Source: a virus. Taken from it: a stretch of DNA of 22,508 nt. The stretch covers positions 1 through 22,508 of IMG/VR virus record IMGVR_UViG_3300030105_002297. The stretch is one strand, 5' to 3'. This document shows, in pieces, positions 13,801 through 21,797 of this stretch (positions are counted from its first letter, which is position 1; each line of letters begins with the position of its first letter). The notes beneath the pieces are model-generated. The model searched no databases, was not told the DNA's origin, and worked only from the letters and a program-made list of their open reading frames with translations. Position numbers and translations under genes: made by a program.

Positions 13801-14924
13801 GGAGGTTAAGTATGTCAGGCTCTACACAGGCTGTGCACGAACAATCTGTTCTTGCAGGGTTTGAGTCATTAAACTATCTAATGAACACCGCAAAGACTGG
13901 AAGAAAATTATTTCAATCAACTCTTTATTCAAAGAAAGTAAGAAAAGAAATGGAAGCTGATATATTTGGCAAAGAAGAAGCGGTTGGCTCTGCTAGGATA
14001 GAAAGAAATAAAGCTTGGGCAAGAGAAAAACTTCTTCAAGACTTTAATTTTACTTATACTGGGACAAAACCAACCAACAAGCAAGCAGGGGATGCTGCAA
14101 TATTTTATGCAGACTTGACACAATTAAAAAGAAACCCAGCTAGTGAAGCATATTATATGTCACACCCAGCAACTAAATCTTTGTTTAGACTTAAATCGTT
14201 TGTAATAAAACAAACAAAATTAATACATGACAACTTAGCATTAAATATGAAATACGGTAATCATGGAAGTTTACTTAGAATAGGACTAGCTGGAGCAATA
14301 GGACAACAATATAATAAATATAACAATGCATTAACAGAATATGTAACAGGGGAAGACCAAGTTCCACGATATGATGAAGACAGTTGGCTAGATGGAGCAC
14401 TTAGAGTAGGTCTTTTTGGACTCTCTGCAGACATTCTTGCTGAAGATGACAAAATGTATTCACTTAGGCAAAATATAAAACCATTTGCTTGGGCAATGGG
14501 AGAAAAATTAATAGACGATTTTCAAGCAAGGGTATCAGAAACAAGACAAGGAAGTTTTGCAGAGCAGGTACCTACTATCATTGGTAACGCATCAAAATAT
14601 TTTGGTGGTCCACTGGGAAAAGGTTTATCAAATTTTAAAAGCACTGAACAAAAGATAGATGGACTTACATTTAAAAAAGGTTTGCTAGAAGAGAAATTAT
14701 TTAAAGAGTATGAAAAAGCGTTTACTATGAAAAATGAGTATGATAGAGATATTATATTAAAAAGAATGGATGACAAGATAAACGAATGGAACATAGCTTA
14801 TGGACATTTAGTACCTCTTGATGGAAGTAGCAAAGGATTTAGAGTTAAATATTTTGAAAAATTGGTAAGGGAAAAACAAAAAGAAGATAGGAGTAAAGGT
14901 CTTAAGTCTAAGTATGTTCCTTAG
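10887..14924 (+). CDS. Very large ejection/internal virion-like protein (1345 aa)
   Basis: 1345 aa, the largest gene here. TTG at 10887 is the start: AGGAG lies 6 nt upstream and the previous stop one base before it. The N-terminal 30% has hydrophobic helical stretches (IGATVLSIFVDYAPIHVAGA at about 110-129; others near 285-320). The middle is charged and helical. A second hydrophobic zone (about 868-895, NIFTGSLVAFGLGPANNAFQ) and a third (LLRIGLAGAIGQQYNKY, about 1130-1146) follow, then basic helices to the C-terminus. Large size, alternating membrane-like and basic helices, and the position after a transglycosylase-like protein match the ejection channel proteins of podoviruses (T7 gp16-like role). 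No homologous motif can be named with certainty. Confidence 0.65.
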   Translation: MTQTNLSTKKPDYLGPSVVQGQEEDNNPYFHILMPNWWGDIIKEGYGTSLVANAIDLTAQTNIPDIDTIDATKFDNYARGFNENMPDFLRKSNVSEDYSTYSDDILFDIGATVLSIFVDYAPIHVAGATGNLPVLAGGYASKGLRFAKIANKIKKRLPSGIETIKKGFQNKGVVPQTVNKVTKSLYNTFSDPGKIIQSGNTLGIYGASHDIVNQKLDNEDGASWMNKIDEAQTVDAFVSSWKAGAAFPIGSALGKPLLGTPTKHLTNYMGGSVSKSAGGKALQKGAQEVGDLVGGGYAFVVPEEGFLPSIDVLAHSIGTVGGLKGIGGLKSSLRERSTQVNRAFQRKDLSENQIDAAQAEIGMRIKQEVTDNTSVWRRDGVELIIEGQTAKGHIRYRESGSDKISWMNGDKFFKENKVENIEAAPESILNSRIESFADALGAFSPKAKSELYYDGAPPKLTEGKSGLSRFSTKEKYELAKKLQTQKIGRDVLLDLSVQTLGPRRIGNVVNKAVDFLTIDLLNKFPQGTGDYFNMRSMQARIFKNSNPSPLAKSVWRKLNAYPSLASSWLGTLSSKNGLNLHFKNKNLTAEAKNKTTEDLEHGILDNQIAKDLDASYKYVGSLLREKGIIGKDVPLELNYSPHYLRGPVKEALNELQSKMSGEYINGREVLDFVGESTRNKNNPELSAAEQALIEKATVKWLETTKSPGAKKLVEQYLKNNTVDGKINWTKSFEQLNKQLIALNNNPFHNFKKGRSTDIKWDKEQGKFDADIFETDAILNKQRYLKDAADAIAIQESFGNNMEIFGKNLETLQSQGRDADVRTLRQLMEVHTVNKNFFSSPTSKESFRFGMGILKGGVNAIEAVNNIFTGSLVAFGLGPANNAFQASVSTAILSGYLPHFKSGMAWFSPKGIKEKERRLQESGVKSLRKEDVFQLAYNSSSNKESWHRKVAEISSRRPVTTLGIDFSEVPLLRRLSMSGSTQAVHEQSVLAGFESLNYLMNTAKTGRKLFQSTLYSKKVRKEMEADIFGKEEAVGSARIERNKAWAREKLLQDFNFTYTGTKPTNKQAGDAAIFYADLTQLKRNPASEAYYMSHPATKSLFRLKSFVIKQTKLIHDNLALNMKYGNHGSLLRIGLAGAIGQQYNKYNNALTEYVTGEDQVPRYDEDSWLDGALRVGLFGLSADILAEDDKMYSLRQNIKPFAWAMGEKLIDDFQARVSETRQGSFAEQVPTIIGNASKYFGGPLGKGLSNFKSTEQKIDGLTFKKGLLEEKLFKEYEKAFTMKNEYDRDIILKRMDDKINEWNIAYGHLVPLDGSSKGFRVKYFEKLVREKQKEDRSKGLKSKYVP

Positions 14925-14966
14925 AGTCTTTCTCTAGTTTTTGTACACTTTTATAAAATTCTCCTT

Positions 14967-15054
14967 ACGAGGATAGGCCTATACGGCCATAACTTTTTCT
15001 ATTGGATATAACTATCGAGTAAATATACTTAAGACTATAGAGATATAGCCTCGT
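14967..15054. terminator. Structured gap between converging gene blocks; possible terminator
   Basis: The gap 14925-15057 has no gene. TAGGCC (14974-14979), loop TATAC, GGCC (14985-14988) then a bulged A and TA form a stem, followed by ACTTTTTCT (14992-15000). This would serve as a rho-independent-like end for the + strand late block. CTATA (15035-15039)/TATAG (15044-15048) is a second hairpin with a GAGA (GNRA) loop. ACGAGG (14967-14972) pairs with CCTCGT (15049-15054) and encloses both. Shape and location fit termination between convergent transcripts; a regulatory RNA is an alternative. Confidence 0.4.
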
Positions 15055-15057
15055 GTA

Positions 15058-15252
15058 TCATTTATCATTTTCGTATTTTTCGTGCAATTCTAGCATGACA
15101 CCAGCTAAATAGACACACAAATCAAGAACTTCTTCTATGCCTTCCTTAAGATTGTCCCTACTTCCATCGATTGGAACTTGTTCACCATACTTTACAGCAC
15201 CGACATCTAGCCGCTGCTTAATCATACATAATATTTTATCGTTGTTCTTCAT
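15058..15252 (-). CDS. MazG-like nucleotide pyrophosphohydrolase, short
   Basis: 64 aa. Motif order is RLDVGAVKYGEQVPIDGSRD (14-33), then N-L-K-E37-G-I-E40-E41-V-L-D44-L-C-V-Y-L-A. The spaced acids E37, E40, E41 and D44 are the metal-binding set of all-alpha NTP pyrophosphohydrolases (MazG/dUTPase-2 superfamily), which cut NTP or dNTP to NMP and pyrophosphate. A second acidic helix is short or missing (about 52-62), so it is half the size of MazG and would need to dimerise. Phages often carry these small forms to clean nucleotide pools or damp the (p)ppGpp response. The start ATG has no SD; instead a large hairpin ends 9 nt before it. This is the last gene of the leftward block. Confidence 0.7.
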   Translation of the reverse strand: MKNNDKILCMIKQRLDVGAVKYGEQVPIDGSRDNLKEGIEEVLDLCVYLAGVMLELHEKYENDK

Positions 15253-15261
15253 AATTTTTTA

Positions 15262-15502
15262 TGGGGTAATGGTAGCCAACCTTAGTATTGCAAACAATTT
15301 TAAAAGTAATAGTATTCCTTTCACTTATTTAAATTGTTTATCTATATACTATATTACCCCAATGTTAGCTGTTAGACCAAAAGGAAAAACTAACTGATAA
15401 TCTCAATCAAAAAATCTAACAGCTGTTAAAGTTTTAGGCTAGGAATTAGCAATATGTTATTATGTTAATATATTTATACGGAAAATAACAAACCTAGCCT
15501 AA
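15262..15502. ncRNA. Candidate structured element: three tandem hairpins in a gene-free gap
   Basis: The 253-base gap 15253-15505 has no supported gene. Hairpin A nests three stems: TGGGGTAAT/ATTACCCCA (15262-15270/15353-15361), TAGTAT/ATACTA (15283-15288/15346-15351) and AAACAATTT/AAATTGTTT (15292-15300/15331-15339). Hairpin B is AGCTGTTAGA/TCTAACAGCT (15367-15376/15415-15424); its 3' arm lies in a 12-bp palindrome TAACAGCTGTTA (15417-15428). Hairpin C is TTAGGCTAGG/CCTAGCCTAA (15434-15443/15493-15502), nesting TGTTATT/AATAACA (15455-15461/15484-15490). All pairs are perfect, so the strand is undecided. It could be a non-coding RNA, a leader controlling the MazG-like gene, or a DNA site such as a replication origin. 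Confidence 0.45.
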
Positions 15503-15505
15503 GTA

Positions 15506-15778
15506 TTAAAATGGTACGTCAGAATCTTTTACTTGTGAAACTTCTTTAGGCTGTGGTTTTGCTCCACCTCGTTTAGATTCAAAAACTTCTTTGTCTTCAA
15601 AGACAATAGATATAAAATCATTTCCATTGCTTGCTTTCTTACTCCAACCTGAAACATATCCTTCAACTCCGTTGAAAGTTACTGTCCCTATTGTTTTCCA
15701 ATTAGGTCTTTTTGGATTGTCACCTACATCATTATGAAATAGGTTTGCTGTATTTGGTTTTGGTACATAATCACTCAT
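15506..15778 (-). CDS. Small SSB-like protein with DSDVPF C-terminal tip
   Basis: 90 aa. Residues 21-62 are a beta-rich block: NPKRPNWKTIGTVTFNGVEG then V-S-G-W-S-K-K...GNDFISIVFEDKE. This resembles short DUF736/OB-like proteins that phages and bacteria carry beside recombination genes. The linker (66-84) is basic and Gln/Pro-rich. The last residues are DSDVPF, ending right at the stop. Single-strand DNA-binding proteins end in D-D-D-I-P-F, the hook that recruits replication and recombination enzymes. The match suggests a phage ssDNA-binding protein acting with the ERF and nuclease genes. The start follows AAGGAG, with an 8-nt overlap with the upstream gene. A full OB fold is not provable by eye. 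Confidence 0.6.
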   Translation of the reverse strand: MSDYVPKPNTANLFHNDVGDNPKRPNWKTIGTVTFNGVEGYVSGWSKKASNGNDFISIVFEDKEVFESKRGGAKPQPKEVSQVKDSDVPF

Positions 15779-16037
15779 TTGTTCTCTCCTTTATGTGTTC
15801 AACAGAGGTAGGGTTAGCTGAAGATAATCTGATTTCTTCAGATGGCATTTTCTCTGCTTTTTCTTTTTGTATATTAATTTTTTCTTCTACTTTCATTCTT
15901 ATATTCCTTAAGTCGTGTCGTATATTATCTTCAAGCTCACTCTTGTGTGGCTGTCTAGTGTAAACTTCAATAATATTTTCTAACTCTTCAAGGGTAAACT
16001 TGAATGTAATTGATATGTTTTTAAAATCTATATTCAT
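15771..16037 (-). CDS. Unrecognised helical protein (88 aa)
   Basis: 88 aa. The N-terminus ITFKFTLEELENIIEVYTRQ (9-28) is a beta strand then a helix. A second charged helix (32-65) follows, then a polar tail. No cysteine cluster, membrane segment or catalytic motif was seen. It starts in the stop of the gene upstream (ATGA, SD AGAGGT 6 nt before) and overlaps the SSB-like gene by 8 nt, so all three are probably one transcript. Function unknown; an accessory of DNA replication or recombination by location only. Confidence 0.65.
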   Translation of the reverse strand: MNIDFKNISITFKFTLEELENIIEVYTRQPHKSELEDNIRHDLRNIRMKVEEKINIQKEKAEKMPSEEIRLSSANPTSVEHIKERTNE

Positions 16038-16216
16038 TTCTTTACCTCTATATATGAAAGCTTTCTTAATCTTTTATAAGACTTAGAGTCTGAAGATTGC
16101 ATTAGTCTATCTCTATACTTAGACACTAATTCATTATGTCTGATAATACCAGAACCTGTTATCTTACCCTTGTCATATAAATCTTTGTATAATTTAATCA
16201 AGCCTCTTATCTCCAT
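16034..16216 (-). CDS. Small helical protein (60 aa)
   Basis: 60 aa, basic and helical: MEIRGLIKLYKDLYDKGKIT (1-20), then G-S-G-I-I-R-H-N-E-L-V and a Tyr/Lys/Arg-rich end. SD GAGG about 6 nt before ATG lies inside the end of the resolvase-like gene, which it overlaps by 23 nt. Unknown family. The IIRHNELVSKY segment could be the second helix of a small DNA-binding protein, but I see no clear helix-turn-helix. Confidence 0.55.
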   Translation of the reverse strand: MEIRGLIKLYKDLYDKGKITGSGIIRHNELVSKYRDRLMQSSDSKSYKRLRKLSYIEVKK

Positions 16217-16544
16217 GTTCCGCCTCTTTCAAAATCTTTAGCATTAATAAATATCTTTCTAAGTCAATAACTATAACTGGTTTAATTCTATCTGCTCTTA
16301 CTACTACGCCTATCTCTTCTTTTTCTGGTAGCAAATAGGATGGTATAACTTTACGCATCTTACATCCATAATAATTTCCATCTATCAATACATCTCCCAA
16401 TGGATGACAGGCTCCACCTCTATCTCTATTGTGAGCATCAAGGTTAAAATCTCTAGCTAGGTTTACTGACAGCCTTTGTAGCTCTGCTCCCCTTTGCCTG
16501 TTCCTTCTTCCCATCTGTTGCGGTGTCATCTTCTTCTTTGGCAT
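16194..16544 (-). CDS. Resolvase-like PD-(D/E)xK protein with degenerate catalytic site
   Basis: 116 aa; ATG 16544 has a strong SD (AGGAG, 7 nt). The N-terminus is basic (KKKMTPQQMGRRNRQRGAEL). E21 fits the helix glutamate that opens phage Holliday-junction-resolvase-like nucleases. Next come G50-D51-V with the first metal-binding aspartate, and N-Y-Y-G60-C-K62-M-R-K. Active members have E-x-K where this has G60-C-K62, so one catalytic acid is missing while the lysine stays. The C-terminal half (GVVVRADRIKPVIVIDLERY, 79-98) matches the late strands of the fold. It may bind branched DNA without cutting, or use another residue. The family call is from pattern memory. Its first 92 nt overlap the next gene upstream. 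Confidence 0.5.
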   Translation of the reverse strand: MPKKKMTPQQMGRRNRQRGAELQRLSVNLARDFNLDAHNRDRGGACHPLGDVLIDGNYYGCKMRKVIPSYLLPEKEEIGVVVRADRIKPVIVIDLERYLLMLKILKEAEHGDKRLD

Positions 16545-21396: not shown

Positions 21397-21443
21397 ACTA
21401 CTTATACTCCTTTTGTTAATTAAAGTTCCCATAAATCTTTTGA

Positions 21444-21771
21444 GGCTTTGTTTATAATCTCGTTTGATACTATCGGCGTCTTGCTAAAAAAAGCGTTGGC
21501 GTCCCAGTAGAGCACAGGTATTATTTAATAGCTTACCTCTTCTATATGCTAACCTCAAATCTAGCGGGGGTTTCTGAATATAATTGCTATGCAATAACTA
21601 GTAAGATATTCTTATTAGCATCGTAAAGACGCACATATAACATTTTCTCTCACTACTTACTACCCTAACAAATACTCTCTCGCAAAGAGTAGCGACAATA
21701 TCCACCACCCCCAAGCTTTTTAAGGTAAGTCATTCGCCCTATTATGTTGCAACTTAATGCTAAACAAAGCC
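21444..21771. ncRNA. Candidate structured RNA in the 400-base gap
   Basis: The gap 21397-21797 has no supported gene. Properly nested inverted repeats are: GGCTTTGTTTA/TAAACAAAGCC (21444-21454/21761-21771, 11 bp perfect); GCTTACCT/AGGTAAGT (21531-21538/21723-21730, 8 bp with one G-U in + sense); AGCGGGGGT/ACCCCCaaGCT (21572-21580/21707-21717, 9 bp with a 2-base bulge). Inside are the local hairpins ATTGC/GCAAT (21583-21595), CTAGTAAGA/TCTTATTAG (21598-21618, one G-U in + sense) and TACTCT/AGAGTA (21673-21691). No pair crosses another. It may be a regulatory RNA, a long leader for the gene downstream, or a DNA site; a fold and comparison are needed. Confidence 0.4.
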
Positions 21772-21792
21772 CTATCTTCCACCTACCTTAAA
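21719..21792. repeat. 9-bp inverted repeat next to the 151-aa gene stop
   Basis: TTTAAGGTA (21719-21727) and TACCTTAAA (21784-21792) are perfect complements enclosing 56 bases. The 3' arm is 5 bases from the stop of the 151-aa gene. The 5' arm overlaps the AGGTAAGT arm of the larger structure, so both cannot form at once. Confidence 0.5.
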
Positions 21793-21797
21793 TTCTT

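Follow-up and report, generated by a model that had tools for sequence, protein, structure and literature searches.

What does a gene-free gap in an early phage operon contain, set directly behind the gene for a single-strand DNA-binding protein (SSB), and what might it do for the gene that follows? The window analysed here is a stretch of 22,508 nt (22.5 kb) out of an AT-rich virus record of 41,872 bp. It carries plus-strand genes up to position 14924 and early genes on the minus strand, among them those for SSB, an Erf-like annealing protein, a Cas4-like exonuclease and GroES. A Shine-Dalgarno sequence (SD) is present in 13 of the 20 early genes of the window. The gap, 15253–15505, lies without any gene between ssb and a 64-aa gene, and on the minus strand it is occupied by three hairpins, here called C, B and A in the order of the early transcript.

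15506–15778, minus strand: ssb gene, 90 aa, C-terminus ..DSDVPF; PHROG single-strand DNA binding protein, E 7e-5
15431–15505, minus strand: hairpin C; covariance model R3, 81.7 bits, and covariation
15364–15430, minus strand: hairpin B; covariance model R2, 68.8 bits, and both-sided changes
15262–15362, minus strand: element (hairpin) A, a three-way junction; covariance model R1, 76.6 bits, single match in the genome, and covariation
15253–15261, minus strand: AU-rich 9-nt linker UAAAAAAUU from A to the SD-less start codon
15058–15252, minus strand: downstream 64-aa gene, MKNNDKIL..; PHROG matches of unknown function

The acidic ..PF tail of SSB is kept in relatives. The product of the 64-aa gene, which we take to be MazG-like, has homologues that share its N-terminus and are preceded by their own SD.

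The fold of the gap

Hairpin C consists of an outer stem of 10 bp (15493–15502 with 15434–15443) and an inner stem of 7 bp (15484–15490 with 15455–15461), with the conserved UUUUCCGUAU at 15476–15485. The stem of hairpin B is a perfect 10 bp (15367–15376/15415–15424), or 12 bp when G-U is admitted (15413–15424 with 15367–15378), and the hairpin carries the pyrimidine motif UUCCUUU at 15380–15386. Element A is closed by the 9-bp stem P1 (15353–15361 with 15262–15270), inside which the 6-bp stem P2 (15346–15351 with 15283–15288) leads into an arm of about 10 bp. P3, GGUUGGCUACC, lies at 15271–15281, AAAGGAA lies at 15315–15321, and a 12-nt arm pair is found at 92%. The loop motifs AGGA and GGUUGGCUAC are invariant, apart from a few variants of GGUUGGCUAC.

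The first-pass annotation had described three tandem stem-loops with nested arms in this gene-free gap, and every arm that it listed was recovered in place. It was also correct in placing the end of A 9 nt upstream of a gene start (the ATG at 15252) that has no SD. Its judgement that such repeats are improbable by chance is borne out on the minus strand by folding against shuffled controls, which covered both strands. As RNA, the minus strand has a folding energy of -67.4 kcal/mol (z -5.3), which 0 of 200 shuffles equal, and the plus strand reaches z -2.2. The single hairpins on the minus strand give z -3.9 for C, -4.6 for B and -4.9 for A. After correction for GC, the minus strand of the gap is the best fold among 892 windows tiled over both strands of the 22.5 kb, and 10-bp perfect inverted repeats with loops of up to 60 nt occur twice in the gap and in no other of 86 tiles.

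The second-best GC-corrected fold in the window is another gene-free gap, 21433–21797 (minus strand, 365 nt; z -2.9). One 12-bp stem there (21792/21719) starts about 5–6 nt past the stop codon of the upstream gene, and a second one, also of 12 bp (21772/21443), covers nearly the whole gap. Of 13 relatives tested, 9 gave nucleotide matches to this gap, one match being weak. It was rejected as a second SD-less case, since an SD and an ATG lie slightly further on. Separately, the stretch 14925–15057 is the junction of the two convergent gene blocks; it includes a palindromic AGGCCT, the sign of the GC skew switches near 15.0 kb, and a simple scan of it found no terminator-like site.

Covariation, strand and distribution

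Relatives were obtained by searching viral contigs with SSB together with the downstream protein, and their gaps hold the same hairpins with arms that are changed yet complementary. In MAFFT alignments made without use of the structure, both-sided changes occur in 5 pairs of P1 of A (starting set), in 9 of the 12 pairs of B and in 4 of the 16 pairs of C, the latter being weak by count, as 28 of 500 shuffles reach it. In wider sets, P1 has such changes in 6/9 and 7/9 pairs. The covariation scores of A, B and C each exceed all 500 shuffles, which keep the relatedness of the sequences, and every slid control; these statistics rest on related, non-independent sequences, and the E-values of the covariance models built here are rough. 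Compensatory changes in related phages accordingly accompany all three stems that had been proposed from one sequence.

Over all stems, pairs read on the minus strand include 55 G-U against 2 A-C, a count that comes partly (A4, A7) from alignments fitted to the P1 model, those of B and C not being so fitted. This excess points to the minus-strand (early) transcript as the functional molecule, and its one-sidedness is unlike the expectation for a DNA cruciform or a plus-strand RNA. We consider the RNA family of A well supported by these comparisons. A hidden small protein within A was rejected, because no conserved reading frame is present: 45 of 58 copies lack an open sense frame, and their lengths fall in all three mod-3 classes. 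Rfam 15 gave no match at the gathering score for the window and 31 related loci, and a search of the region at E up to 5 returned SNORD72 only (21 bits; gathering 43). A search for tRNA found none. No intrinsic terminator, i.e., a GC-rich hairpin followed by a U run, was found at A, B or C, and the sole one in 14800–16300 lies inside ssb.

The covariance models find a single confident copy of A in its own record and in most related records, with weak second matches in two remote records only. B and C occur at most once each per record, nearly always in the same gap; in one relative (G028), C stands behind ssb and A about 2 kb away. B and C are limited to near relatives, and A is much wider. 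Among 73 loci fetched by SSB protein alignment rather than by RNA, 41 hold A, in every case in the orientation of ssb and immediately behind it, and B and C are absent. The loci without A that were inspected belong mostly to phages of 40–56% GC in which the next gene follows closely behind ssb. The first-pass annotation could not show what this distribution makes clear, namely that A is the conserved core and that B and C are clade-specific additions. P1 varies widely by group (GGGGUAAC, GGGCUAAC, AGGGCAAC, GGGGUAGU, UGAGGUAG, CUGGAGU), and GGUUGGCUAC and AGGA stay constant. The cultured phages searched gave no nucleotide match, the six named phage records had no A behind their ssb, and the exact motif was not found in bacterial genomes. 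A is a conserved folded RNA in a diverse, poorly known group of uncultivated phages, absent from Rfam.

Several variant elements were also seen. A remote group (G013, G016, G017) gives weak matches to A with a different P1 and GGUUGGCGCC, and these elements are likely, though not proven, relatives of A. A remote version of A stands behind an amidoligase-like gene rather than ssb (L120:2664–2774, L122:2294–2404, L123:493–603, all minus strand), with a quite different P1, AUGGCAGACA/UGUCUGCCAU. Three AT-rich loci (L204, L217, L218) have behind ssb a shorter hairpin, AAUGGGU..AGUAGCCCAUU, in place of A, which is perhaps a reduced A. A naturally short A of 60 nt occurs in L038/L094 and L032/L093, where the AGGA arm is absent and P1, P3 and hairpin B are kept.

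Spacing to stop and start codons, and candidate functions

Among 58 distinct copies, A begins 4–5 nt after the ssb stop codon in 36, 69–78 nt after it in 12 and 124–149 nt after it in 6. A lies 3' of ssb in these 54, and 4 copies have no ssb stop in the searched upstream stretch. The exceptions are L046/L127, the only copy with A before ssb; L060, with A behind an Erf-like gene; L068, where an exonuclease-like gene follows A; and L079, which the end of its contig truncates. The longer distances are filled by B, C, both or look-alikes, so the hairpins tile the space. Anchoring of the array is shared between the stop codon of ssb and the downstream start, a further feature that the first-pass annotation could not see.

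The next ATG stands 7–10 nt after A in 29 copies including the window, with an SD in 0/29 and with all linkers ending in AUU, and it stands 14–25 nt after A in 16 copies, of which 15 have an SD (Fisher p 5e-11, uncorrected for relatedness). A downstream gene without its own SD, as coupling or reinitiation would have it, is thus found for the window gene and 28 other copies. These cases are not independent, because 21 of the 29 belong to one downstream family; three other families show the same state. Both states occur with the same N-terminus in a DNA methyltransferase family (MTase MKTLELFAGSRSFSK) and in the 64-aa gene of the window (MKNNDKIL). The copies compared show a mutually exclusive downstream choice, either A plus 7–10 nt without SD or A plus a longer linker with SD. 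A is also retained ahead of genes that carry an SD themselves and in copies with a further hairpin behind it, which means that replacement of the SD cannot be its sole use. This fourth hairpin, D, GGCAAGAUGAAAUUCACGAUAAGCGAAAGC..UCUUGCC (GGCAAGA..UCUUGCC), is found downstream of A in some relatives, where the start codon behind it mostly has no SD (L016:1340–1430 and L059:1850–1925; also L156, L159, L166, L172, L175 and L189), and has no Rfam match.

Comparison among the copies shows an RNA structure on the sense strand, in single copy and at a fixed spacing of 4–5 nt when A comes first. We favour, at close to an even chance, the reading that A is a cis-acting intercistronic RNA that replaces the SD of the gene behind ssb, probably through structure-bridged termination-reinitiation. 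The mechanism is one that we infer from sequence. A, the conserved core behind the extra hairpins C and B, would act in cis as a translation element. Through P1, the stop codon of ssb and the AUG that follows would lie within about 11–14 unpaired nt of each other, or about 26 in the window with its three hairpins, and a ribosome or 30S subunit ending ssb could start again at the SD-less AUG, with the AGGA(G) motif and the invariant GGUUGGCUAC loop perhaps retaining it. Alternatively, A itself may retain the 30S subunit. Either way, the output of the exchangeable gene behind ssb would be tied to translation of ssb. According to the account of Chemla et al. given in PMC12548453, strong structure immediately behind a stop codon went with weaker coupling of genes in a synthetic operon, and for this reason a specific ribosome contact is considered here, against a simple scanning view. 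A bolder version, in which A is a folded element that recruits or retains ribosomes without a linear SD, much as a transferable IRES or TURBS of bacterial type might do, is conceivable but doubtful. Pairing of the invariant loop with 16S rRNA was rejected, as its longest complementarity to E. coli 16S is 6 nt and none is convincing. In the window, UUCCUUU of B could kiss AAAGGAA of A; such kissing would not be the sole reason for AGGA, because A keeps AGGA where B is absent. Kissing of the P3-loop UUGG with YCAA was likewise rejected, being possible in the class I inner loop and absent in class II.

Among the other explanations, it is unlikely, though not strongly so, that A, B and C instead mark or protect the 3' end of an ssb mRNA segment, a nuclease cut in or near the array, comparable to that at T7 RNase III sites, and folds that block 3'-5' exonucleases giving a long-lived ssb mRNA; a cut after P1 would also give the next gene an mRNA with a short leader and no SD. 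The position just behind ssb whatever gene comes next, the tiling of several hairpins and the short AU linker before SD-less starts, which would suit a processed short-leader mRNA, all agree with this, as does the unusual stability of T4 gene 32 mRNA (PMC3014915). A simple stabiliser, however, would have no need of a 10-nt invariant loop, AGGA and GCAAAUAC that persist through complete changes of P1, nor of a position exactly 4 nt from a stop codon. Invariant loops within variable stems, a single confident copy per record and the presence of A in a few other gene contexts would also fit a trans-acting small RNA from the ssb 3' region, whose AGGAG and GGUUGGCUAC loops would bind a ribosome, protein or mRNA; we hold this improbable, as A is almost always locked to the ssb stop codon, has no clear promoter or terminator of its own and meets no long complement of its invariant loop elsewhere in the phage genome. 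The only extra loop-complementary sites in its own genome, AAAGGAAUAC repeats at 24.6 and 24.8 kb, look like coding and ribosome-binding sequence and were rejected as targets.

The constant link to ssb might suggest an operator through which SSB regulates itself or a ligand is sensed, similar to the T4 gp32 pseudoknot but placed 3' of the gene. T4 SSB represses itself via structured RNA (PMC3014915), and class I copies of A could form competing helices around GGCAUU. Since A lies behind, not before, the ssb ribosome-binding site, we give this slightly less credence than a trans-acting RNA. The first-pass annotation had offered three options, a non-coding RNA, translation control, and a replication or packaging DNA site. 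The first is strongly supported by covariation and the G-U excess, the second is supported by the ssb-stop spacing and the replacement of the SD, and the third is not supported. DNA elements, whether a G4-type primase site, an origin, a recombination or packaging site or PeSL-like recombination borders, could draw on the ability of both DNA strands to fold, on the exchange of genes behind A while A stays, and on the nearby SSB, Erf and exonuclease genes. Against this, G-U tolerance is confined to the early strand, A is always sense to ssb and to the early operon, no confident promoter lies alongside, and cumulative GC skew places the gap near the maximum, where convergent transcription also switches. 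We regard a DNA role as very improbable.

Taken together, the RNA family shows strong covariation and an unusually precise layout of stop codon, 4–5 nt, fold, 7–10 nt and SD-less start. The same genes with and without an SD form a natural comparison, through which structure-driven reinitiation, usually hard to isolate in bacteria, becomes directly testable. The array is also an example of how conserved RNA can lie in gene-free gaps of phage early operons, where annotation built on proteins overlooks it.

Comparison with known systems

G4-type single-strand DNA origins use hairpins as DNA, under a Watson-Crick constraint and with no tie to the transcribed strand, whereas the G-U to A-C ratio of 55:2 and the constant sense orientation set the array apart. 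PeSL cassettes (promoter early plus stem-loop) of T4-type phages are repeated within one genome, each carrying a promoter. They resemble the array in having stem-loops beside exchangeable genes, but A occurs as one confident copy per record, with only weak promoter-like matches. The RNase III sites of T7 early mRNA, cleaved by that enzyme in vivo, likewise place hairpins between early genes on a polycistronic transcript; A differs in its invariant loop motifs and fixed stop-codon spacing.

T4 gene 32, with its autoregulatory pseudoknot and RNase E-processed stable mRNA, likewise links conserved RNA structure to the message of a phage SSB. In T4 the structure precedes the gene, on its 5' side, and mediates autorepression, and the mRNA is unusually stable (PMC3014915). 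A has another fold and, rather than lying upstream of the ssb ribosome-binding site, stands 3' of ssb in 54/58 copies, 4–5 nt after the stop when it comes first.

Coat-lysis coupling in MS2 and GA offers a likeness in the SD-less downstream start and in the dependence on upstream translation, which for A is predicted. Classic termination-reinitiation coupling requires an overlap or a very short intercistronic gap, whereas here a conserved RNA of 100–250 nt fills the gap. Caliciviral TURBS are eukaryotic elements that lie upstream of the stop codon and pair with 18S rRNA. A would resemble them as an RNA element that holds a post-termination ribosome for reinitiation, with the SD-like AGGAG as its candidate for rRNA pairing. 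If the likeness to an IRES or TURBS is real, a phage could swap genes behind ssb without supplying a ribosome-binding site.
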